Shown piece by piece: positions 1 through 14,071 of a DNA stretch of 51,470 nt. The stretch spans positions 1-51,470 of the forward strand of contig CAJWCU010000023.1 of the NCBI GenBank assembly GCA_913030825.1. The letters run 5' to 3'. The notes beneath the pieces are model-generated. The model worked only from the letters and a program-made list of their open reading frames with translations, searched no databases and was not told the DNA's origin. Every line of letters begins with the position of its first letter. The stretch's first letter is position 1. This DNA comes from an uncultured Rhodospirillaceae bacterium (GTDB taxonomy: Bacteria > Pseudomonadota > Alphaproteobacteria > Rhodospirillales > Casp-alpha2). The position numbers were made by a program, and so were the translations under genes.

Positions 1-69
1 GCGCTGCCGGACGATGGTTCGGCCACCGTCTGTTTCGATCAGGAGAAAGCAAGGGATGGGCGGAGATAA

Positions 70-81
70 GCAAATATTTGC
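70..81. promoter_or_regulatory. Palindromic operator GCAAATATTTGC, copy 1
   Basis: A perfect 12-bp palindrome lies in the non-coding stretch 1-159, left of the stop codon of the leftward hydratase gene. The same 12 bases occur at 3884-3895 and 4820-4831. I noticed no further copy on reading the rest of the window. This copy has no rightward gene after it, so I infer that it serves a leftward gene starting beyond the left edge. The rest of 1-159 shows nothing else I can name. Confidence 0.7.
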
Positions 82-159
82 ATTCGAGCTGAATTTCCTG
101 GTTTCGACGGCTCCGCAGCCTTGGGTATGTGACATCGGCGCTCGAACAATCCGACCCGT

Positions 160-774
160 TCAAGGGGCGCGGGGCACTGTCACACCAATCAGATCATCTC
201 GGGAGATAACGCGGGCAAGGTCGTCCGCGCCGAGGCCTTCCGTTCCTGGGGGGCGAAGGGGCAAGACCATGTAGCGCAGGTCGGCGGTGCTATCCATGAC
301 GCGGATTTCCGTGCCGTCGGGGATCGTCGTTCCGAATTTTTCCATGATTGCGCGCGGTTCGACGACCATGCGCGAGCGATAGGCGAAACTTTTGTACCAA
401 TCCGGCGGCAGGCCGAGGATGGCCTTGGGGTAACAGGAACAGAGCGTGCAGACGATGGCGTGATGCACTTGGGGCGTGTTCTCGACGACGGTGAACTCCG
501 GGCCTTGGGTGATGCGCAACCCCAACTCGTCGAACACAGCCTGCTTGGCGTCGGTCAGCAGCAGGGTGCGAAAATCCGCGTCGGCCCAGGCGCGCGCCGC
601 CAGCCGTGCGCCCAGAAGTGGACCCCGCGTGTCGATTTCGGCACGCAGATCGGCTAGGCGGTCTCGGTTGATCAAGCCTTTGTCGATCAGTAGGTTGCGG
701 ACAGCCTGGGCCAGAAGGTCCGTGCGCCCGCCGCAACGGGTCAGATCGGCGAGATCGCTTTCCGTGGTCTTCAT
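160..774 (-). CDS. Nitrile hydratase alpha / thiocyanate hydrolase gamma family subunit
   Basis: This is the metal-binding subunit of the nitrile hydratase/thiocyanate hydrolase family (204 aa). The metal motif VCTLCSC is at residues 108-114 (Cys109, Cys112, Cys114). The threonine after the first cysteine is typical of the cobalt type; iron enzymes usually have serine. The conserved stretch GLPPDWYKSF follows the motif, and GTEG and the SRDDLIGV region follow near the C-terminus. In the family two of these cysteines are oxidised to sulfinic and sulfenic acid. The product hydrates a nitrile to an amide, or thiocyanate to carbonyl sulfide and ammonia; sequence alone does not settle which. The start overlaps the stop of the upstream subunit gene (774/771), so translation is probably coupled. 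This is the last gene of a six-gene operon headed by modA. Confidence 0.88.
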   Translation of the reverse strand: MKTTESDLADLTRCGGRTDLLAQAVRNLLIDKGLINRDRLADLRAEIDTRGPLLGARLAARAWADADFRTLLLTDAKQAVFDELGLRITQGPEFTVVENTPQVHHAIVCTLCSCYPKAILGLPPDWYKSFAYRSRMVVEPRAIMEKFGTTIPDGTEIRVMDSTADLRYMVLPLRPPGTEGLGADDLARVISRDDLIGVTVPRAP

Positions 775-1097
775 GACAGGGGTTCCAGCCAGGAATCGTA
801 AATATCGGCGGCGATACTTGTTCCGCCCGTCGGTTCCGCCGTGCCGTCTCCCCAGACCTCGGCGAAGTCGAAAACGACCTGATAGAGATGGCAGGCGGGC
901 GGATCAGCCGTGCCGGTGGCCAAGGCGGTGGGGTCCTGAAAGACACCGAAGTAGCGGACGATCCGGCCTTCCTTGCCGCGCAGGTAGAAGGGTGCCCGGA
1001 TATGGCCGGTTTCCGGGAAGCGGGCGGAGACCCGCACCCGCGTCCCGTCGCCCAGACGCGGCCGGGGGGGGATCGCTGTTGGGTCGGCGCGGGCCAT
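771..1097 (-). CDS. Split hydratase beta subunit, C-terminal half (SCNase alpha-like)
   Basis: This 108-residue protein matches only the C-terminal SH3-like half of a nitrile hydratase beta subunit. It has the motifs LGDGTRVRV, a GHIRAPFYLRGKEGRIVR stretch typical of the family (G-H-x-R-x-P-x-Y-x-R-G-x-x-G), LYQVVFDFAEVWG, and the terminal DIYDSWLEP. Normal nitrile hydratase beta subunits are about 210-230 aa in one chain. Thiocyanate hydrolase and toyocamycin nitrile hydratase are the known cases where the chain is split in this way. The start codon overlaps the stop of the upstream half (ATGA at 1097), and the stop overlaps the start of the metal-binding subunit. All three chains are therefore expected to be made in balanced amounts and to assemble together in the cytoplasm. 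Confidence 0.82.
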   Translation of the reverse strand: MARADPTAIPPRPRLGDGTRVRVSARFPETGHIRAPFYLRGKEGRIVRYFGVFQDPTALATGTADPPACHLYQVVFDFAEVWGDGTAEPTGGTSIAADIYDSWLEPLS

Positions 1098-1450
1098 CAG
1101 GGGCCGTCTCCGGTTTCAACTGCGGTCAGGCGGGCGATCTCGCGGGCGATTTCGTCCTCGGTCAACAGACCCTTTTCGATCAGGATATCGGTCACGCCCA
1201 AAAGCCAACGTTCATAATAGCTGACTTGGAAATAGATTTCCGGCGGCAGTTCCTCGATCCCTCGTCGGCGTTCGTCTGGCCGCACCAGCCCGCATTCCCG
1301 CAGTGCGAGCAAGTTGACCAGAGCGTCCACGTCCTTGTCGAAGGCGTCGGGTTCGTGTTCGGAGATCAGGAAAGGTTGGTGGTCCGTGCCGCCCAGGTCG
1401 TGCATGGCGTGGTGGTGCGGGTCCTGGTTGTGCGTCCGGTCGTCTTCCAT
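1097..1450 (-). CDS. Split hydratase beta subunit, N-terminal half (SCNase beta-like)
   Basis: This 117-residue protein corresponds to the N-terminal half of the nitrile hydratase beta subunit. The family opening HDLGGT is at residues 17-22. The helical segment with RPDERRRGIEELPP and YYERWL follows at 57-83, and the C-terminal EKGLLTEDEIA is also typical. An arginine in the first segment is in the region that contacts the oxidised cysteines in characterised enzymes. A histidine-rich stretch at residues 12-14 precedes HDLGG. The gene starts 16 bp after modC stops, so it is almost certainly cotranscribed with the transporter. The function is inferred from its two neighbours, with which it forms a three-chain enzyme of the thiocyanate hydrolase layout. 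Confidence 0.82.
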   Translation of the reverse strand: MEDDRTHNQDPHHHAMHDLGGTDHQPFLISEHEPDAFDKDVDALVNLLALRECGLVRPDERRRGIEELPPEIYFQVSYYERWLLGVTDILIEKGLLTEDEIAREIARLTAVETGDGP

Positions 1451-1466
1451 GATCCATGCCTGCGGC

Positions 1467-2156
1467 CTATACGGCCTCTTTCATCATTGCCTGTTTGATG
1501 TCGGTCATGACGTCCGCGGCCTCTCCGAACCGCGTGACGGCGCCGTTCTTCATCATGACCACTGTGTTGGCCAGGCTTTCGACTTCATGGGTTGAATGAG
1601 TGACGTAGACGATGGGGGTGTAGAATTCGTCGCGCACCCGCTTGATGAAGGGAATGATCTCGGCCTTGCGCAACTCGTCCAGTGCCGACAGCGGTTCGTC
1701 CATCAGCAGCAGGTCCGGGTTGGTCAACAGCGCACGCCCGATGGCGACCCGCTGTTTCTCACCGCCTGACAGGTGATGGGGCCGGCGTTTCAGAAGGTGG
1801 CCGATGCCCAGAAGCTCGACGACCTCGTCGAACCTGATCTGGTGGCCGTCGCGGTAGCCGTAGCGCAGGTTGCTGTTGACGGTCAGATGGGGGAACAGGC
1901 GGCTTTCCTGAAAGATGTAGCCCATGCGCCGGGCGTAGGGCGGCACGGAAACCCTATTCTCGGAATCGAAAATCACCCGGTCCTGGATCTTGATCAGGCC
2001 CTTGTCCGGCGTCATCAGGCCCGCCAACAGGTTGACGACGCTGGTCTTGCCCGACCCTGACGGCCCGAAGAACACGGTCAGCCCGTTGTTGGGCAGTTCG
2101 ACATCGACGTTCAGGTTGATGCCGCCCAGAACCTTTTCGAGGGCAATGGAAATCAT
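1467..2156 (-). CDS. modC: Molybdate/tungstate ABC transporter ATPase, short form
   Basis: This is the ATPase that energises oxyanion import with ModB. In the 229 residues one sees Walker A GPSGSGKT (31-38), Q-loop FQES near 82, the signature LSGGEKQRV (129-137), Walker B LLLMDEP (149-155) and the H-loop histidine at about 187. The start was placed at 2156, where homology begins; an in-frame extension to 2612 only overlaps modB. Most ModC proteins are about 350 aa because a TOBE/Mop domain that binds molybdate follows the ATPase. Here the chain ends about 65 residues after Walker B, so that sensor domain is absent. It lies 11 bp downstream of modB and 16 bp upstream of the hydratase genes. 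Confidence 0.92.
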   Translation of the reverse strand: MISIALEKVLGGINLNVDVELPNNGLTVFFGPSGSGKTSVVNLLAGLMTPDKGLIKIQDRVIFDSENRVSVPPYARRMGYIFQESRLFPHLTVNSNLRYGYRDGHQIRFDEVVELLGIGHLLKRRPHHLSGGEKQRVAIGRALLTNPDLLLMDEPLSALDELRKAEIIPFIKRVRDEFYTPIVYVTHSTHEVESLANTVVMMKNGAVTRFGEAADVMTDIKQAMMKEAV

Positions 2157-2167
2157 GGCGTCCCTCC

Positions 2168-2857
2168 TCAGCCGTTCAGGATCTTGCCGAGCCGCTTGTT
2201 CAGGACTTCCGCCCCGACCAGCGCGACCATCGCCAGAACCAGTGAGATGAGGACCAGTCGCCCGGCCATGGCGTCGCCGTCGGGCTGCTGGACCAGGTTG
2301 TAGATGGCGATGGGGATCGTCCGGGTTTCGCCCGGGATGTTGGATACGAAGGTGACGGTCGCCCCGAATTCGCCAAGGCACCGGGCATAGGCCAGGATGC
2401 AGCCCGCGAGCACCCCCGGCATGATCAACGGCAGGGTGACCGTGAAGAACACGCGGATCGGCCGTGCGCCCAGGGTGTAGGCGGCGGCCTCCAGCTTGCG
2501 GTCCATGGCTTCGTAACTGAGGCGGATCGTGCGCACCATCAGCGGAAAAGACACGACCGCCGCCGCCAGCGCCGCCCCCCGCCAGGAGAACACGAAGGTC
2601 AGGCCGAACCATTCCTTCAGGTAAGCCCCGAGAAAGCCGTTTGTGCCGAACGAAACCAGCAGCAGATAACCCATGACCACCGGCGGCAGAACCAACGGCA
2701 GATGGATGATGCCGTTCAATATGTTCTTGCCGATGAATTCCTTGCGGGCGAGCAGCCAGGACACGGGAAGGGCAAGCGGCAGGCAGATGAGAACGGCCCA
2801 GAACGAGACTTTCAGACTGAGATAGATTGCTTCGCTTTCGACGTCGGTCAGTTCCAT
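2168..2857 (-). CDS. modB: Molybdate/tungstate ABC transporter permease
   Basis: This 229-residue inner-membrane permease has about five hydrophobic segments, at roughly 15-37, 48-70, 88-110, 145-165 and 200-220. The cytoplasmic EAA-type loop, which docks on the ATPase, reads EAAAYTLGARPIRVFFTV near residues 122-140. LPPVVMGYLLL and CLGEFGATVTFVSNIPGET are typical ModB motifs. The gene lies between modA (61 bp upstream) and modC (11 bp downstream). It forms the transmembrane path for molybdate or tungstate delivered by ModA. The purine-rich GGGGAAGC before the ATG serves as the ribosome binding site. Confidence 0.93.
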   Translation of the reverse strand: MELTDVESEAIYLSLKVSFWAVLICLPLALPVSWLLARKEFIGKNILNGIIHLPLVLPPVVMGYLLLVSFGTNGFLGAYLKEWFGLTFVFSWRGAALAAAVVSFPLMVRTIRLSYEAMDRKLEAAAYTLGARPIRVFFTVTLPLIMPGVLAGCILAYARCLGEFGATVTFVSNIPGETRTIPIAIYNLVQQPDGDAMAGRLVLISLVLAMVALVGAEVLNKRLGKILNG

Positions 2858-2918
2858 GCCGCTTCCCCTTTCCCGATTTCCTGGCGTTGGGCGGTGTTCA
2901 TCGTTGGTCGGCCCGGGT

Positions 2919-3722
2919 CTACTCCAGGATCGGCTTGAACCCGTATTTGGAGAAGGCGGCCTTGGCCGGCTCGGTCTTCAGGAAGGCATAGAACTTCGCC
3001 GTGTCCGGGTTCGTCGAGGTCTTGACGACGGCGATGGGATAGGTGATCGGACCGTGCGATTCCTGAGGGAAGTCACCGATGATTTCGACCTTGTCGGAAA
3101 CCAGGCCCGAAGTCTTGAAGACGATGCCGGCGCCGACTTCGCCGCGTTCGACCATGGACAGTCCGGCGCGCACGCTGGGGGCCATCGCCAGGGTCGGTTT
3201 GACTTCGTCCCAGATGCCCAGATATTTGGCGGCGTCCTTGAAATACAGGCCGACGGCGGTGTGGTCCGTGTCGCCCACCGCCATGCGTTTGCCCTTCAGG
3301 GCTTCGAACAGCTTCATGCCCTTCTCGATCTTGATCATCGGGAAGTCGGAGCCCTTCGGCTTGACCAGCGAGAGCGAGTTGGCGACCACGGGGACGCGGG
3401 TCTCGTCCTTGATCAGGCCGGCCTTCTGCAGCCGGTCCATCCATTTGTTGTCCGCCGAGAGAAAGATGTCGGCGGGGGCGCCGTTCTCGATCTGCTTGGC
3501 CAGGGTAGAGGTGGCGCCGAACGACACGCGGATATCGCCGCCGGACTTCTTATAAGCGGCGACGATTTCCTTCATGGCGTTGGTCGTGCTGACGGCGGAA
3601 AACAGGGTCAGGGTGTCGGCCTTGGCCGTCGATGAAAGGCCGAAGACCATCGCAAGGGCGAGCGCGCCCTGGGAGAAAGCGCGGAAAAATCTGGTTTTCG
3701 TGGTGGTGGAACGGAATCGCAT
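2919..3722 (-). CDS. modA: Periplasmic molybdate/tungstate-binding protein
   Basis: This is the substrate-binding protein that captures molybdate or tungstate in the periplasm (267 aa). A Sec signal peptide is clear: a basic N-terminus, a hydrophobic core at about 15-30, and a cleavage site after AKA at residues 33-35. The mature part shows family motifs: FSAVSTTNAMKEI, FGATSTLAKQIENGAPADIF, LSADNKWMDRL and GEVGAGIVF. I chose the ATG at 3722 because GGAGG lies 5 bp before it and the signal peptide starts there; the frame runs open further upstream without a signal. It heads the operon modABC plus hydratase genes. A copy of the GCAAATATTTGC palindrome lies about 160 bp upstream, in the divergent gap shared with the Crp-type regulator. 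Confidence 0.94.
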   Translation of the reverse strand: MRFRSTTTKTRFFRAFSQGALALAMVFGLSSTAKADTLTLFSAVSTTNAMKEIVAAYKKSGGDIRVSFGATSTLAKQIENGAPADIFLSADNKWMDRLQKAGLIKDETRVPVVANSLSLVKPKGSDFPMIKIEKGMKLFEALKGKRMAVGDTDHTAVGLYFKDAAKYLGIWDEVKPTLAMAPSVRAGLSMVERGEVGAGIVFKTSGLVSDKVEIIGDFPQESHGPITYPIAVVKTSTNPDTAKFYAFLKTEPAKAAFSKYGFKPILE

Positions 3723-3883
3723 TGGTGCCTCCATATCTTCAGATTGGAATCGCGATGGACGTTTCCTTGAAGATGCCGGCGGACTTTGTTGGCCTGGTCT
3801 TGCCTGCGTTGAGGCTTGGCGATGTCCGCTCGGCGCGCTGGCATCAACGGGGTGATTAGAAAGACGCGGGATCGACCCGTAAC

Positions 3884-3895
3884 GCAAATATTTGC
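3884..3895. promoter_or_regulatory. Palindromic operator GCAAATATTTGC, copy 2
   Basis: A perfect 12-bp palindrome lies in the 309-bp divergent gap (3723-4031) between modA and the Crp/Fnr-type regulator gene. It is identical to copies at 70-81 and 4820-4831. It lies 162 bp from the modA start and 137 bp from the regulator start, so it could act on either. Binding by the adjacent regulator is inference. Confidence 0.75.
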
Positions 3896-3955
3896 GGTCC
3901 ATTTCCTGTGTGCGCATAAAGGATGCCTGAAAATCCACCACCGAGACGGTATTGC

Positions 3956-3983
3956 ATAGCGTTTAAGCAGTATGATAGCGTTT
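3956..3983. repeat. Direct repeat ATAGCGTTT, two copies 19 bp apart
   Basis: ATAGCGTTT occurs at 3956-3964 and again at 3975-3983, a spacing of 19 bp or about two helical turns. The pair lies 49-76 bp upstream of the chosen start of the Crp-type regulator gene, where a promoter is expected. It may be an activator site or part of a promoter; no protein can be assigned. Confidence 0.45.
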
Positions 3984-4031
3984 TTGCAGTGCAGCAATTT
4001 TTTGCCTTCACCGGCTGAACGGGAAAATGTC

Positions 4032-4793
4032 ATGACGCCGGATGAAACGCTCCTGGATGGGGACTTCGCCGACACCGAAATCGACGCATCGCTGAGTTCC
4101 GTCCTGCGGCTGACGGAAACGGGCCTGCCCGTGGATTCCGGCCCCGACATCATGGACATGCTGTCGGACAGCGAACTGGCCCGCCTTGTCGCGGCAGGAC
4201 GGGAAACCGCCTACAAGCCCGGCGCCTTCTTCTTCCGCCAGGGCGATACCCATGACGGCATCCATTTCATTCGCTCGGGCCGGGTGCGCTCCTATTACAC
4301 GTCACCGAGCGGCCGCGAGATCACCCTGGCCTATTGGCCGAAGGGCCATTTCGTCGGCGCGCCGCAGATTTTGGGCGGCGGCGAACATATGTGGTCGTCC
4401 GTCGCGGTCGAGGCGACGACCGGGCTTTGGCTGCCGGGGGCGGTCCTGCGCCAATTGATCCGCGAGACGCCGAACCTAGCGATCGCCCTGATCGAAGGGC
4501 TGACCTACAAAAGCATGTGCTACACGGCGCTGCTGCAGATCATGGGCACGCAGTCGAAGACCGCGCGTCTGGGTCACCTGTTGCTGACCCTGGCGTCGCC
4601 GGTGCCGGACGGTGCGAACAGCGCCCCTGTGCGCCAGCATTTTACCCAGGAAGAATTGGCCAATCTGATCGGCTCGACCCGGCAATCCATCTCGACCTCG
4701 CTCGACAAGTTCGAGAAGCAGCGCCTGATCGCCCGCGAGGGCGATGCCATCCGTATCCTCGACGTCGCGGGCTTGCGCGATCTTTGCGACTGA
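4032..4793 (+). CDS. Crp/Fnr-family transcriptional regulator
   Basis: This 253-residue regulator has an N-terminal cyclic-nucleotide-binding-type beta barrel (about 45-160; YKPGAFFFRQGDTHDGIHFI region) and a C-terminal winged helix (about 203-250). The recognition helix reads GSTRQSISTSLDKF (214-227). The Arg-Glu...Arg set that E. coli CRP uses to read TGTGA is not present, so a different DNA target is expected. There is no FNR-type N-terminal cysteine cluster. I chose the ATG at 4032, which is preceded by GGGAAA; an in-frame ATG at 3972 is possible. It diverges from modA and lies 111 bp upstream of the amidase gene. Identical palindromes on both sides suggest that it controls both. Its effector is unknown. 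Confidence 0.85.
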   Translation: MTPDETLLDGDFADTEIDASLSSVLRLTETGLPVDSGPDIMDMLSDSELARLVAAGRETAYKPGAFFFRQGDTHDGIHFIRSGRVRSYYTSPSGREITLAYWPKGHFVGAPQILGGGEHMWSSVAVEATTGLWLPGAVLRQLIRETPNLAIALIEGLTYKSMCYTALLQIMGTQSKTARLGHLLLTLASPVPDGANSAPVRQHFTQEELANLIGSTRQSISTSLDKFEKQRLIAREGDAIRILDVAGLRDLCD

Positions 4794-4819
4794 CCGCGCG
4801 GCGAAGGTAAATTCTTACC

Positions 4820-4831
4820 GCAAATATTTGC
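4820..4831. promoter_or_regulatory. Palindromic operator GCAAATATTTGC, copy 3
   Basis: The third perfect copy lies in the 111-bp gap between the Crp-type regulator gene and the amidase gene. Its centre is about 79 bp upstream of the amidase ATG, a usual position for an activator site. An AGAGGA ribosome binding site precedes the amidase start. Confidence 0.78.
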
Positions 4832-4904
4832 TGTCCTGACTTTTCCGCCCCGCGCAAGCTGACCTCAATCGGACCTACTCCGAAACCACAAGAGGACAGC
4901 GCGA

Positions 4905-6311
4905 ATGGACGATCTCAGCCTGGAATTCGACGCCCTTCAGGCGGCCTATGAAGAAGGCCGGGCAACGCCGACCGCGGTCGTTTCCGAAGTCCTTTCCCGG
5001 ATTTCGGCGCGCGGCGATGACGGCGTTTGGATCCATCGCGTTCCCGAATCCGAGGTCATGGCACGGGCCCGGCAATTGGAATCTCTATCGGCGGATGCGC
5101 GCGCGGCCCTGCCGCTATACGGCATCCCGTTCAGCGTGAAGGACTGCATCGACGTGGCGGGCCTGCCGACGACGGCGGCCTGCCCCGCATACGAATACAT
5201 CGCGGGCCATACCCACCTCGCGGTCCAGAAGGCGCTCGACGCCGGGGCGATCCTGCTGGGTAAGAGCAACATGGATCAGTTCGCGACCGGCGTGGTCGGC
5301 GTGCGCTCGCCCTACGGCACGGCGCGAAATACCTTCAACGCGGATTACATCCCGGGAGGCTCCAGCTCCGGCGCCGGGGTGTCGGTCTCCGCCGGTCTCT
5401 GCGGCTTCGCATTCGGGACGGATACCGGCGGTTCGGGCCGTGTGCCCGCCAGCTACAACGATATCGCCGGGTTGAAGCCGACCCTGGGCTTGTTTTCCCG
5501 GGCCGACATGGTCAACGCCAGCCGGTCGTTCGATACGGTCTCGGTCTTTGCCAATGATGCCCGCGATGCGGCCCGGGTGCTGCGGGTCTGTCAGGGCGTT
5601 GACCCGCGAGATCCTCTGGGCCGCGCCGCCCCGGCACCCGACTCCCTGCCGACCCTGCCCGAACGGGCGACGATCGCGATTCCCCGCGGGGACGATCTGG
5701 AATTCTTCGGCAATGGCGAGGCGGCGGCACTGTTCGACGAAGCCCTTTCCGCCCTGCGCGACGCCGGTCATACCCTGGTCGAGATCGATTTCCGGGTCTT
5801 CGTCGAAACCAGCGCCATGATGTTCGAAGGCCCCTACATCGCCGAGCGATACGCCTCGGTCGGCGCCTTCATCGAGGCCCAGCCGGAAGCCGTCGATCCC
5901 GTCGTGCGCGACGTCATCCTGTCGGCCAGGAAGTATTCGGCGGCGGATGCCTTCAAGGCGGTCTATCGTCTGCGGGAGAACGCGGCGGCGATCCGCGCGA
6001 CCTTCGACCGGGCCGACCTGATCGTCGTGCCGACGGTCGGCACCGCCTATACCCGGGACGACCTCGCGGCCGAACCGGTGGCCGCCAATGCGAACAACGG
6101 CCGGTATCTGAATTTCGTCAGTATGTCCGATCTCGCCGCCGTCGCCGTGCCCAACGGGTTTCTCGCCAGCGGCGTGCCGATGGGCGTGACCTTCGTCGGC
6201 CCGGCGTTCAGCGATTTTGCCCTGGCCGATTTTGGGGCGCGGTTCGCAGACGGGCGGATCGCCGCCCGGAAACCGATGGCTGACAAGGCGCGGGCCGAAG
6301 CCCGCGCCTGA
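4905..6311 (+). CDS. Amidase-signature hydrolase, AtzF/allophanate hydrolase-like
   Basis: This 468-residue enzyme of the amidase signature family hydrolyses a C-N bond with a Ser-cisSer-Lys triad. I read Lys79 (PFSVKD), Ser153 (in GGSSSGAG) and nucleophile Ser177 (TDTGGSGRVPA). The spacing of 74 and 24 residues equals that of Lys91/Ser165/Ser189 in AtzF allophanate hydrolase, and the surrounding stretch (LPTTAACPA, LGKSNMDQFATG, SPYGTARN) is closest to that branch. The extra C-terminal domain of about 130 residues found in full AtzF is absent. Beside a nitrile hydratase-family enzyme, a simple role is hydrolysis of the amide product to acid plus ammonia; this is inference. It ends 4 bp from the convergent dioxygenase gene with no terminator visible between them. 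Confidence 0.87.
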   Translation: MDDLSLEFDALQAAYEEGRATPTAVVSEVLSRISARGDDGVWIHRVPESEVMARARQLESLSADARAALPLYGIPFSVKDCIDVAGLPTTAACPAYEYIAGHTHLAVQKALDAGAILLGKSNMDQFATGVVGVRSPYGTARNTFNADYIPGGSSSGAGVSVSAGLCGFAFGTDTGGSGRVPASYNDIAGLKPTLGLFSRADMVNASRSFDTVSVFANDARDAARVLRVCQGVDPRDPLGRAAPAPDSLPTLPERATIAIPRGDDLEFFGNGEAAALFDEALSALRDAGHTLVEIDFRVFVETSAMMFEGPYIAERYASVGAFIEAQPEAVDPVVRDVILSARKYSAADAFKAVYRLRENAAAIRATFDRADLIVVPTVGTAYTRDDLAAEPVAANANNGRYLNFVSMSDLAAVAVPNGFLASGVPMGVTFVGPAFSDFALADFGARFADGRIAARKPMADKARAEARA

Positions 6312-6315
6312 AGAC

Positions 6316-7191
6316 CTAGACCGGCTTTTCCCCGATCACGGTGCAGCGTTCCATGTAACGGTCGGCCGTGTAATCCATCACGGCGTAATGCATCAGACAC
6401 CGGTTGTCCCAGACGACGACGTCGTGCGGCCGCCAAGTGTGGCGGTATAGGAAATCCTGCTTCGTCGCGTGGGTATAGAGCGGGTCCAGGATGGGTTTGC
6501 TCTCCGCCGGCGTGAAGCCGTCCAGGTGCGAGGTAAAGCCCGGATTGATGTAGAGCGATTTCTTCCCCGTTTCCGCATGGGTGCGGACCACCGGGTGGAC
6601 GCAGCGGTTGGCGCCGTCGAAATCGTTGTCGATGACGACGGGCTTGGCGTATTGCGTCGCCGCCGCGACGGCGAAATCGTGCACCGCATGCAGGCCGTCG
6701 ATCATGCTCTTCATGCCGTCCGACAGGGCCTCGTAGGCCGCCGTCATGTTGGCGAAGACCGTATCGCCGCCCCGGGGCGGAACCTGAATGCCGTAGAGGA
6801 CGGAGGCATGGGCCGGGCGGTCGCGAAACGAAACGTCCGAATGCCAATAGGTGCCCGCACCCTTGCGGCCCGTGGGTTCGCCGTTTTCATCGACCTTGTT
6901 GGAGACCCGGTAAATCTGCGGGTGGTCGGGATGCAGGTAGCGCGACACCGTGTCCTGCAGCGGCGGTTGGCCGTCGTCGTGAAACAGTGGGCCGAAGCGC
7001 CGGGAAAAGCCCATGTGCTGTTCCTGGGTCATGTCCTGATCGCGGATGACCATGAAGCCGCCGGCCTCCAGCCAGGCGGCGTGGATATCGCCGAACAGAT
7101 TGTCGCCGGCGTCGCCCGCCAGGTCGCGGCCGATGTCCAAACCGGTGATCTCGATGCCGAGCGTGCCGAGGGAATTCATTTCAATGGTCAT
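6316..7191 (-). CDS. TauD/TfdA-family Fe(II)/2-oxoglutarate dioxygenase
   Basis: This 291-residue dioxygenase uses Fe(II) and 2-oxoglutarate. The iron ligands are His117 and Asp119 (YWHSDVSF) and the distal His268 (CLMHYAV). Arg282 in RYMERCTV is placed to bind the 2-oxoglutarate carboxylate. Taurine, alpha-ketoglutarate-type sulfonates, herbicides and other small acids are substrates in this family; the substrate here cannot be told. The gene diverges from an IclR-type regulator, and the gap between them carries a good inverted repeat, so inducible catabolic control is likely. It is convergent with the amidase gene. Confidence 0.9.
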   Translation of the reverse strand: MTIEMNSLGTLGIEITGLDIGRDLAGDAGDNLFGDIHAAWLEAGGFMVIRDQDMTQEQHMGFSRRFGPLFHDDGQPPLQDTVSRYLHPDHPQIYRVSNKVDENGEPTGRKGAGTYWHSDVSFRDRPAHASVLYGIQVPPRGGDTVFANMTAAYEALSDGMKSMIDGLHAVHDFAVAAATQYAKPVVIDNDFDGANRCVHPVVRTHAETGKKSLYINPGFTSHLDGFTPAESKPILDPLYTHATKQDFLYRHTWRPHDVVVWDNRCLMHYAVMDYTADRYMERCTVIGEKPV

Positions 7192-7328
7192 GGTCTTCTA
7201 TGTCTTTCCTGGATGATCCCGATTAACGGCGCGGGCGGTTGGTCGCCGCGCGATTTCCGTCTTGGCCGCAGGCCGACGAAACGGGCGAGCGACGGATTTG
7301 AAAATGCGCCCGCCTTGCCAGATTGTAA

Positions 7329-7345
7329 ATGAAACTGTATTTCAT
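7329..7345. promoter_or_regulatory. Inverted repeat ATGAAA-N5-TTTCAT, probable IclR-type operator
   Basis: A perfect 6-5-6 inverted repeat lies between the divergent dioxygenase and IclR-family genes. It is 138 bp from the dioxygenase start and 66 bp from the chosen regulator start. Short AT-rich palindromes in the divergent promoter are usual IclR-family targets. The rest of the gap shows no clear promoter. Confidence 0.6.
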
Positions 7346-7410
7346 CACATGAAACGACGATGTCCCACGGGCGCCGTCGTTCCCGAAACCGCTGGAAAAC
7401 GGGGCCGCCG

Positions 7411-8199
7411 ATGGGATCCTACAAACCGGTAAACGCCGTGCTGCGTGGCCTGGACGTGCTGGCCGCCGTCAACAAACTGAAGGGTCGGGCGACGATCGGC
7501 GAGCTGTACCGGGAGACCGCCCATGACAAGGCGACCATCGTGCGCATGCTGGAAACGTTGATCCATGCCGGATATGTCCGGCGCGACGACGATCAGGGCG
7601 TCTATGAGGTGACGGGCCGGTCTCTGTTGCTATGTTCGGGATACGACCGGCACCGCGCCGTCGGACGGACGGTCGCGCCGATCATTGCCGGATTCCGCGA
7701 CCGCGTCGGCTGGCCGTCGGACGTGGCGATTTTCGACCGGGACGCCATGGTGGTGGTCGAAACCTCGCGGGTGCCGGGGCGGATGTTCGTGATCCGCGAT
7801 CCGGGCTTCCGCTCCCCCATGCTGGGGACCAGCTTGGGGCTTGCTTATCTCGCCCATACCACGGCGGAGGAACGGGCCGCCGTTCTGGCCAATGAGGCCG
7901 CGACGCCGCAGCCCTGGAACGAAATCGCCCAGGACCCGTCCGCCGCCGGGGCCCTGCTGGCCGATATCCGCGCGCGCGGCTATGCGACCATGCACGCCGA
8001 GTTTTCGCGCCTGGAATACGGGCGTCAGATTTCGACGGTCGGCGTGCCGATTCTGGTCGACGGCCGGTCGGTCGCGGCGATGAACGTGCTTTATCTGAAA
8101 AGTGCCTTGTCCGAGGACGAGGCGGTGGCGGGCATGCTGGCGCCGTTGCAGGACTGCGCGGCCGAGGTCGCGACGGCACTGGCTGCCGACCCCGGATGA
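7411..8199 (+). CDS. IclR-family transcriptional regulator
   Basis: This 262-residue regulator has an N-terminal winged helix-turn-helix (about 5-65; YKPVNAVLRGLDVLAAVN, ATIGELYRETAHDKATIVRM). A C-terminal IclR effector domain follows (about 80-255), with the RDPGFRSPMLGTSLGLAYL region and the VGVPILVDGRSVAAMNV strand. The start was set at 7411 because family members begin just before YKPV; an in-frame ATG at 7360 would add 17 basic residues. Neither has a strong ribosome binding site. It probably represses or activates the divergent dioxygenase gene and itself through the repeat at 7329-7345. The inducer is unknown. Confidence 0.88.
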   Translation: MGSYKPVNAVLRGLDVLAAVNKLKGRATIGELYRETAHDKATIVRMLETLIHAGYVRRDDDQGVYEVTGRSLLLCSGYDRHRAVGRTVAPIIAGFRDRVGWPSDVAIFDRDAMVVVETSRVPGRMFVIRDPGFRSPMLGTSLGLAYLAHTTAEERAAVLANEAATPQPWNEIAQDPSAAGALLADIRARGYATMHAEFSRLEYGRQISTVGVPILVDGRSVAAMNVLYLKSALSEDEAVAGMLAPLQDCAAEVATALAADPG

Positions 8200-13459: not shown

Positions 13460-14071
13460 CATTTCCGCGCCGGTTTCCAAGATATCCAATCCCCGCGCCG
13501 TCAGATGGAAAATCACGTCCTGGCGCATGCGGATGGCAAGGGTTTCGTCGACGGAGAGGTCCAGATAGCTGCGGATCAGGGTGCGCCCCGTGCCGCCGTG
13601 ACAGACCACGATGACCGGCTGCGCCGCATCCAATCCGATCAGCCAGGCCCGCGCCCGGTCCATGACGTCCTGCAGGCTTTCGCCGCCGTCGGGCGGGCGG
13701 TGGCCCCAAGGATCGGCGTCCATGGCGGCCAATTCGGCCTCGTCCCCGGCCTGGGCGATTTCCGGCCGTGTCATGCCTTCCCACCGGCCATAGCCTTTTT
13801 CGATCAGCCGGTTGTCGACCGTGAACGCGGCCGGGTCCAGGCCAGCGGCGGCGCAGGCGAGTTCCGTCGTCTGGGCACAACGCCCGGCCGGGCTGCGGTA
13901 GAGCGCATGACCGTCCAGCGGCGCCAGCTGGCCGGCCAGCAGCGCGCCATAGGCCGTGGCCTGCGACTGGCCCAGGTCGGTCAGGACCGAATTGCCCTGG
14001 CCCTGAATGCGGCCGGCGCGGTTCCATTCGGTCTGGCCGTGACGAATCAGGATGATCTCGGGGTGTGGCAT
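13454..14071 (-). CDS. Histidine phosphatase superfamily protein
   Basis: This 205-residue enzyme belongs to the phosphoglycerate mutase-like branch of the histidine phosphatases. The catalytic RHG motif is at residues 10-12 (LIRHGQTEWN), the second arginine is in ALYRSPAGRCAQT, the acid donor lies near EKGYGRWEGM, and the second catalytic histidine is in VVCHGGTGR. Members dephosphorylate sugar phosphates, nucleotides or cobalamin precursors; the substrate here is unknown. The start at 14071 was chosen because RHG normally lies within ten residues of the start. The open frame continues upstream into low-quality sequence. Confidence 0.87.
   Translation of the reverse strand: MPHPEIILIRHGQTEWNRAGRIQGQGNSVLTDLGQSQATAYGALLAGQLAPLDGHALYRSPAGRCAQTTELACAAAGLDPAAFTVDNRLIEKGYGRWEGMTRPEIAQAGDEAELAAMDADPWGHRPPDGGESLQDVMDRARAWLIGLDAAQPVIVVCHGGTGRTLIRSYLDLSVDETLAIRMRQDVIFHLTARGLDILETGAEMS

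Follow-up and report, generated by a model that had tools for sequence, protein, structure and literature searches.

What reads the short palindrome that recurs near the left end of this 51,470-base contig from an uncultured Rhodospirillaceae bacterium (the whole stretch analysed, hereafter the window), and what does it control there? The window contains exactly three copies of the 12-bp palindrome GCAAATATTTGC, at 70-81, 3884-3895 and 4820-4831, as an earlier note on this DNA had counted, and the gene for a Crp/Fnr-family regulator lies between copies 2 and 3. In our judgement it is likely that the palindrome is the operator of this regulator, acting as the activator of a local scavenging regulon. 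The note's chance figure of about 0.003 at even base composition is right as an expected count (51470/4^12). Dinucleotide-preserving shuffles of the window held on average 0.01 copies, and none of 100 shuffles reached three.

Distribution of the palindrome and its tracking with the regulator gene

The genome to which the window belongs (G000; 3,985,463 bases in 68 contigs) contains four exact copies, namely the three of the window and one at 5299-5310 of the contig C57; two further places appear if one mismatch is allowed. All three window copies lie between genes, as the note had held, when genes are delimited from family matches. Two mechanical open frames do overlap copies: the longest modA frame (from GTG 3941) runs over copy 2 and an 86-residue plus-strand frame (14-274) over copy 1. 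We placed the modA start at ATG 3722, just ahead of a signal-peptide-like start, and did not count the frame ending at 67-69 beside copy 1 as a gene. A placement of copy 1 between two convergent gene ends, one of them the open frame ending at 69, was dropped after comparison with genome G006. An imperfect copy, GCAATTTTTTGC, at 3994-4005 is not kept in G006 and is probably due to chance.

Each copy is a predicted operator with a conserved place in one or both of the relatives G006 and G013, whose stretches are labelled L050 and L051. Copy 1 (70-81) is upstream of an ABC-transporter operon on the minus strand, to which side the contig end comes next. It has the same place in G006 (L050:10134), a single-contig genome of the same genus, where the third copy of that cluster lies upstream of a minus-strand operon for an SsuA-like binding protein, a permease and an ATPase, the binding-protein gene coming first; the note was thus right that one copy faces a gene beyond the left end. 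Copy 2 (3884-3895) occupies the divergent region between modA (minus strand) and the regulator gene (plus strand), and its place is conserved in G006 (L050:13838) and in G013 (L051:10024), there between the regulator and an ABC operon. Copy 3 (4820-4831) is upstream of an amidase gene, with counterparts at L050:14772 and L051:10934. The fourth genomic copy, on C57, stands just behind an ATPase gene and upstream of genes for a fused TRAP permease, a TAXI binding protein and an amidohydrolase. C57 ends within that ATPase gene, an ortholog of the ATPase of the G006 ABC operon (87.6% identity), and an ortholog of the binding protein of that operon was not found in the own assembly (best match 31%). 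From these two facts we infer that most likely only an assembly gap separates C57 from the left end of the window, which would put copy 1 and the C57 copy in one cluster. All four exact copies of the 3.99 Mb genome then lie within what looks like a single cluster, and the local regulon proposed in the note is supported by this and by the matching genes downstream of the sites in relatives.

The order was searched in 317 genomes, and among the 316 besides the own genome only G006 (82% identity) and G013 (73%) gave a close ortholog of the regulator. None was added by 385 genomes sampled from the class (best 43%); in both searches seven or eight candidates per genome were scored, so homologs may be missed. 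All candidates were scored in the 60 nearest relatives, where, with the own genome included, each of the 61 genomes had some Crp/Fnr match and the next best after G006 and G013 reached 40-41%. A scan of named-species genomes, able to find close relatives only, gave a single locus, in a Rhodospirillales metagenome-assembled genome. The palindrome stands beside the ortholog in all three genomes found to have that gene; the refuting pattern named in the note, random scatter over the genome or absence near the regulator in relatives, was not what we found. The G006 cluster has three copies and the G013 cluster two exact copies and one with a single mismatch. The 12-mer flanks the regulator gene on both sides, at -148 from its start and +30 from its end in the window, -145 and +31 in G006, and -123 and +35 in G013. 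Six other members of the genus had neither a close ortholog nor the 12-mer.

G013 belongs to another genus; there the ABC operon is directly divergent from the regulator gene, with which it shares one copy, and the copy with one mismatch precedes a further operon for an M20 peptidase and an ABC transporter. Across the clade the 12-mer is thus found upstream of matching genes: the ABC operon, the amidase gene, and the divergent region between the regulator and either modA or the ABC operon. The surrounding sequence is not kept in the same way. The 60 bases 3' of the 12-mer share 27-43% ungapped identity between orthologous promoters, and outside the 12-mer no column agrees in more than seven of the nine exact sites. 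We also observed a block, CAGTATGATAGCGTTTTTGCAGTGCAGCAA, before the regulator gene (window ~3968-3998, L050 ~13915-13945) that G006 has unchanged and G013 in part; it is probably part of the regulator's own promoter or leader.

At least one copy of GCAAATATTTGC was present in 68 of the 317 order genomes (own included), so single copies are ordinary. Two unrelated genomes of family f31 hold three and four scattered copies; the number alone is not unusual, and the clustering is. Among the matches listed, two copies within 5 kb occurred only in G000, G006 and G013. The relatives lacking the ortholog have 14 copies, and 12 of the 13 that were read fell inside open frames of a crude gene finder; this finder is generous, a similar one having put one of six cluster copies inside the overlong modA frame, and the comparison is not a clean control. 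Within genus g104 of family f31 (G261-G289), 22 of 29 genomes carry the palindrome.

The regulator and its predicted action at the promoters

The regulator (4032-4793, plus strand, 253 residues, recognition helix GSTRQSISTSLDKF) belongs to the Crp/Fnr superfamily by its Pfam cNMP_binding and HTH_Crp_2 domains (PF00027, 57.6 bits, cut-off 27.5; PF13545, 61.9 bits, cut-off 27). Its predicted fold, from a model of moderate quality (pLDDT 73, pTM 0.56), matches GlxR, CRP and NtcA structures, with a Foldseek E value of 1e-18 to GlxR. No named NCBIfam subfamily cut-off was reached, the best score being 50.5 of 228 bits for Fnr. In CRP, base contacts are made by Arg180, Glu181 and Arg185, according to passages of two papers (PMC11253593; PMC12531629). 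The recognition helix keeps Arg180 and has Gln at the Glu181 position and Thr at the Arg185 position; R-Q-T replaces R-E-R, which agrees with the expectation in the note that this helix should not read TGTGA. The triad is R-Q-T in the window and G006 and R-Q-S in G013. The Glu and Arg of the cAMP cassette are not conserved (GA..HMW versus GE..PRT in the alignment to 7ets). Since the first cysteine is residue 163 of 253, the protein lacks the N-terminal 4Fe-4S cysteines of FNR and the corresponding cluster. Nine aligned homologs have an invariant sensor set of Y101, W102, G105, F107, G109, P111, G116, H119 and W121.

The local regulon is real, and the Crp/Fnr protein encoded between copies 2 and 3, which the note had named as the candidate reader, is most likely what reads and activates it; the computations support that choice. 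We infer that its dimer would bind the 12-bp palindrome and that, on sensing a signal (probably neither cAMP nor one received by an N-terminal Fe-S cluster), it would activate four neighbouring transcription units. These would be the SsuA/TauA-like ABC transporter, modABC with a three-gene nitrile hydratase, the allophanate-hydrolase-type amidase, and the TAXI-TRAP transporter with the amidohydrolase of C57. Activation would follow a class II mechanism, with the dimer at about -41.5 against RNA polymerase. The cluster would then scavenge an organic nitrogen compound, perhaps a sulfonated one or a nitrile or amide.

A class II site centred at -41.5 predicts a -10 hexamer that starts 24 bases after the 12-mer. 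We scored -10-like hexamers behind all ten sites in the three clusters, each in the direction of its target. The mean score peaked at offset 24, rank 1 of 75 offsets, a value reached by none of 2000 shuffles at that offset and by none of 400 at any offset. When each ortholog group was given a single value, none of 2000 shuffles reached it at offset 24. The best cases were TCTAAT before modA, CATGAT before the amidase gene of G013, TCTCAT before the ABC operon of G006 and TTCTAT before modA of G006. In the window, the candidate -10 element of the modABC-hydratase promoter is TCTAAT (3855-3860, minus strand), 24 bases past copy 2; weak candidates at the same distance are CAAGCT for the amidase promoter (4855-4860, plus strand, past copy 3) and TCTCCT for the ABC-operon promoter (41-46, minus strand, past copy 1). 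Among E. coli FNR-activated promoters, 19 of 23 have a site at most 4 nt from -41.5, according to a portion of one study (PMC3688515). The shuffle counts lend statistical support to the predicted class II position of the operator.

Several observations weigh against this reading. The promoter statistic comprises 10 sites in five ortholog groups, with an ad hoc -10 matrix and sequences inspected by eye before scoring, and when the groups had a single value each, 10 of 400 shuffles reached the observed value at some offset. Three of the ten sites have a hexamer one base later or a poor one, two more are weak, and a consensus scan of 3600-5000 gave no sigma-70 promoter. The shared site of the regulator's own gene is ~140 bp before the start codon, which does not fit class II. 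The -10 peak of the distant homologs in family f23 is not at 24, except at locus L072. The close ortholog is found in three genomes only, and no such site lies upstream of those same-genus paralogs whose helix (TRQW) is related. In the own genome the degenerate core GCAA-N4-TTGC shows no enrichment (62 occurrences versus 94 for the reversed control), and on this count we rejected it as a genome-wide signal.

The copies might be due to chance or form a small dispersed repeat with no regulatory role, and background-level single copies do exist in the 68 order genomes noted above. The shuffles did not reproduce three copies, the flanks of the copies are unrelated and therefore do not form a transposed repeat, and copies in relatives lacking the ortholog mostly lie inside the open frames of the crude, generous finder; we regard this explanation as very nearly negligible. 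It is also rather improbable that a different, unlinked DNA-binding protein reads the palindrome, with the Crp/Fnr gene a mere member of the regulon. A gapless 12-bp palindrome is typical of other dimeric regulators too, and the site has neither TGTGA nor TTGAT, the signatures usual for Crp/Fnr proteins. Histidine kinases are also encoded near the cluster in G006 and G013, with no match in the window or C57. However, the sites follow the Crp/Fnr ortholog across genera and are missing in the six genus members that lack it, and the class II spacing suits a Crp/Fnr protein. Furthermore, no other gene for a DNA-binding regulator was recognised close to the sites in each of the three clusters: the IclR-type protein of the window has no match in the stretches of G006 (40 kb) and G013 (20 kb) that were read, and 19 further frames scanned there gave no DNA-binding regulator except, at the outer end of the G013 stretch, an RpoD-like sigma factor.

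If the Crp/Fnr protein does read the palindrome, it might mainly repress, with de-repression by the substrate. Palindromes in promoter regions suit repressors as well, the regulator's own gene shares a site, and in two f23 relatives a strong -10-like hexamer (TATAAT or TAAATT) starts 5 bases past the site, which would place the site inside the promoter. In the clade of the window, however, the peak of the -10-like signal is at offset 24 rather than directly after the site, and we consider repression unlikely, if somewhat less so than an unlinked reader.

The PAS/histidine-kinase genes of G006 (L050:31-1969) and G013 (L051:1360-3708) are ~42% identical, and the G013 protein has a weak ABC-binding-protein-like part. 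In G006 the distance to the first gene of the cluster is 5-6 kb; in G013 the kinase gene adjoins the last ABC gene. No response regulator was seen with them.

Genes of the cluster

Family matches agreed with the note that copy 2 precedes modABC and the hydratase genes, and copy 3 the amidase gene. All six genes behind copy 2 lie on the minus strand. The first is modA, for a molybdate-type binding protein (2919-3722; TIGR01256, 174 bits, cut-off 62.5), followed by the permease gene modB (2168-2857; TIGR02141, 246.5 bits, cut-off 182.6) and the ATPase gene modC (1467-2156; TIGR02142, 309 bits, cut-off 285). Three nitrile-hydratase genes come next: the beta chain is split into separate genes for its N-terminal half (1097-1450; PF21006) and its C-terminal half (771-1097; PF02211), and the alpha chain is encoded at 160-774 (PF02979, 8.3e-71). 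G006 has the identical split of the hydratase (160-1450 in the window). The alpha chain belongs to the nitrile hydratase family by PF02979 and missed the NCBIfam equivalog cut-off (230 versus 249.85 bits). The amidase behind copy 3 (4905-6311, plus strand) is of the allophanate-hydrolase (AtzF) type without the C-terminal domain. It passed the PRK08186 subfamily cut-off (536.5 bits, cut-off 487) and missed the TIGR02713 equivalog (506 versus 511 bits), covering positions 2-415 of the 563 of that model, and is not a full-length AtzF.

The name of a nitrile or thiocyanate regulon was not supported. Neither nitrile hydratase nor modABC is among the listed frames of the G013 cluster, and BLAST gave no match to them there. 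The alpha chain scored 179.4 bits against the thiocyanate hydrolase gamma chain model TIGR03887, far below the cut-off of 291.45; with this score and a G013 regulon that lacks the hydratase, a thiocyanate regulon was rejected. A molybdate or ModE-type reading of the site was likewise rejected, because copies also precede units without mod genes. The shared core of the cluster, as assigned from sequence matches, is the SsuA-like ABC transporter, the regulator and the allophanate-hydrolase-type amidase; nitrile hydratase and modABC are extra.

Beyond the amidase gene, the window encodes a TauD-type dioxygenase (6316-7191) and an IclR-type regulator (7393-8199). There is no 12-mer between them, and they were not accepted as members of the regulon; the two genes (6316-8199) are likely a separate regulatory unit.

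Distant homologs and known systems

More distant homologs, at 39-44% identity, were found in 17 genomes, in two of them (G000 and G006) as paralogs, and 7 of the 17 genomes have a GCAA-N4-TTGC site with the homolog. Six f23 loci contain exactly one such site each in 12-20 kb, in the forms GCAATTAATTGC (two loci), GCAATTAGTTGC (three, one of them in reverse) and GCAATTACTTGC (one). In five f23 loci the site precedes a gene of or near the cluster, namely that of the regulator, a binding protein or TauD. G442 has one site, before an apparent flavoprotein gene. The site of L069 and the regulator are 8 kb apart. A second frame finder puts the L068 site at the very beginning of an overlong regulator frame, that of L072 within a 111-residue opposite-strand frame and that of L089 towards the 5' end of a frame; all three were read as upstream. 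In the stretches read of the other 10 genomes (G304, G596, G410, G503 and six genus members), no site was clearly upstream of a unit; G304 has one, L074:15796, in an ambiguous position. Homologs at 33-36% identity had no site near the gene (G003, G025, G063) or over 20 kb (G000:C1). The BLAST-compared loci L053 and L068-L074 have NitT/TauT-type transporter genes nearby, and some have TauD genes.

A half-site scan covered 10 of 21 loci, including the three motif-defining clusters and L089, which was picked for having a site. GCAA at spacing 4 was present in all ten, as were 52 of 2816 pairs (itself included), mostly GC-rich ones. By the observed/expected ratio it ranked fourth, and one pair ranked above it, CAAA at spacing 2, is nested in the same 12-mer. 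In the six f23 loci alone it was second of the 111 pairs present in all six. The Poisson product for these loci is ~5e-4 if they are independent, which they are not, because three of the proteins are 85-89% identical. Nine aligned members, three of them the clade of the window, share LAYW..G.F.G.P...G..H.W and G.TRQ. It may be that the subfamily as a whole has this half-site, which we take as a lead and not as proof. A wider proposal would be that an alphaproteobacterial Crp/Fnr subfamily (LAYWxxGxF(V/I)GxP...GG..HxW with GxTRQ) recognises GCAA-N4-TTGC rather than TGTGA or TTGAT, that its non-cAMP pocket responds to organic substrates with nitrogen or sulfur, or to a lack of them, and that its members activate adjoining genes for NitT/TauT-type transporters and for hydrolases or oxygenases; we regard this as doubtful.

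Other features of these loci were seen in passing. The GCAATTAGTTGC sites stand before a gene for a fumarate-reductase/succinate-dehydrogenase-type flavoprotein, by Pfam at L071:4730-6469 and by eye at L069 and L089. At L068:5692-10067 (G141), genes with radical-SAM, B12-binding radical-SAM and MFS domains run divergently from the homolog, with GCAATTAATTGC between. A 41% paralog in the own genome (G000:C12:96031-96750; L053, L057) lies near another NitT-type ABC transporter and is kept in several genus members, without the palindrome. A third homolog (G000:C1:72678-73325; L090), at 34% and with the helix GATRQSVANAL, adjoins a gene for an SsuA-like binding protein.

Many bacterial Crp/Fnr proteins have no known operator or signal. 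Searches for the exact 12-mer and for GCAAN4TTGC gave no literature match, most subscription papers being outside the search, and searches on Fnr-family regulators with nitrile hydratase, allophanate hydrolase or comparative genomics and on thiocyanate hydrolase operons returned nothing judged to be about this system. The operator of this protein type thus seems to have been previously unassigned, as the note had suggested. The system is a compact, testable pair: one regulator with a changed triad, R-Q-T, and four genomic sites with a conserved 12-mer and a predicted promoter geometry. If the assignment is true, it would add a new DNA specificity to the Crp/Fnr family and point to a substrate-responsive scavenging path that links ABC- and TRAP-type uptake to amide, nitrile and amidohydrolase reactions.

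The regulator resembles E. coli CRP and actinobacterial CRP/GlxR (TGTGA-N6-TCACA) in fold, domain order, Arg180 and a predicted palindromic operator, and CRP uses the class II position proposed here. However, it has Gln in place of Glu181 and Thr in place of Arg185 and lacks the Glu and Arg of the cAMP cassette, and the predicted half-site is GCAAAT as opposed to TGTGA. FNR and FixK (TTGAT-N4-ATCAA) prefer the class II position predicted here, and Fnr is the best NCBIfam match (50.5 of 228 bits), whereas the N-terminal Fe-S cysteines are missing here and the helix and half-site are different. Compared to the clade of the window, the homologs at 39-44% identity mostly have a TTAA-like site centre instead of ATAT. 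NtcA, which serves nitrogen control in cyanobacteria through the site GTA-N8-TAC, is similar as a Crp-family activator of nitrogen-scavenging genes, the role proposed here, and in the fold match. The present regulator, however, scores 39 of 245 bits to the NtcA model, has another half-site and, with about four genomic sites, is not global.

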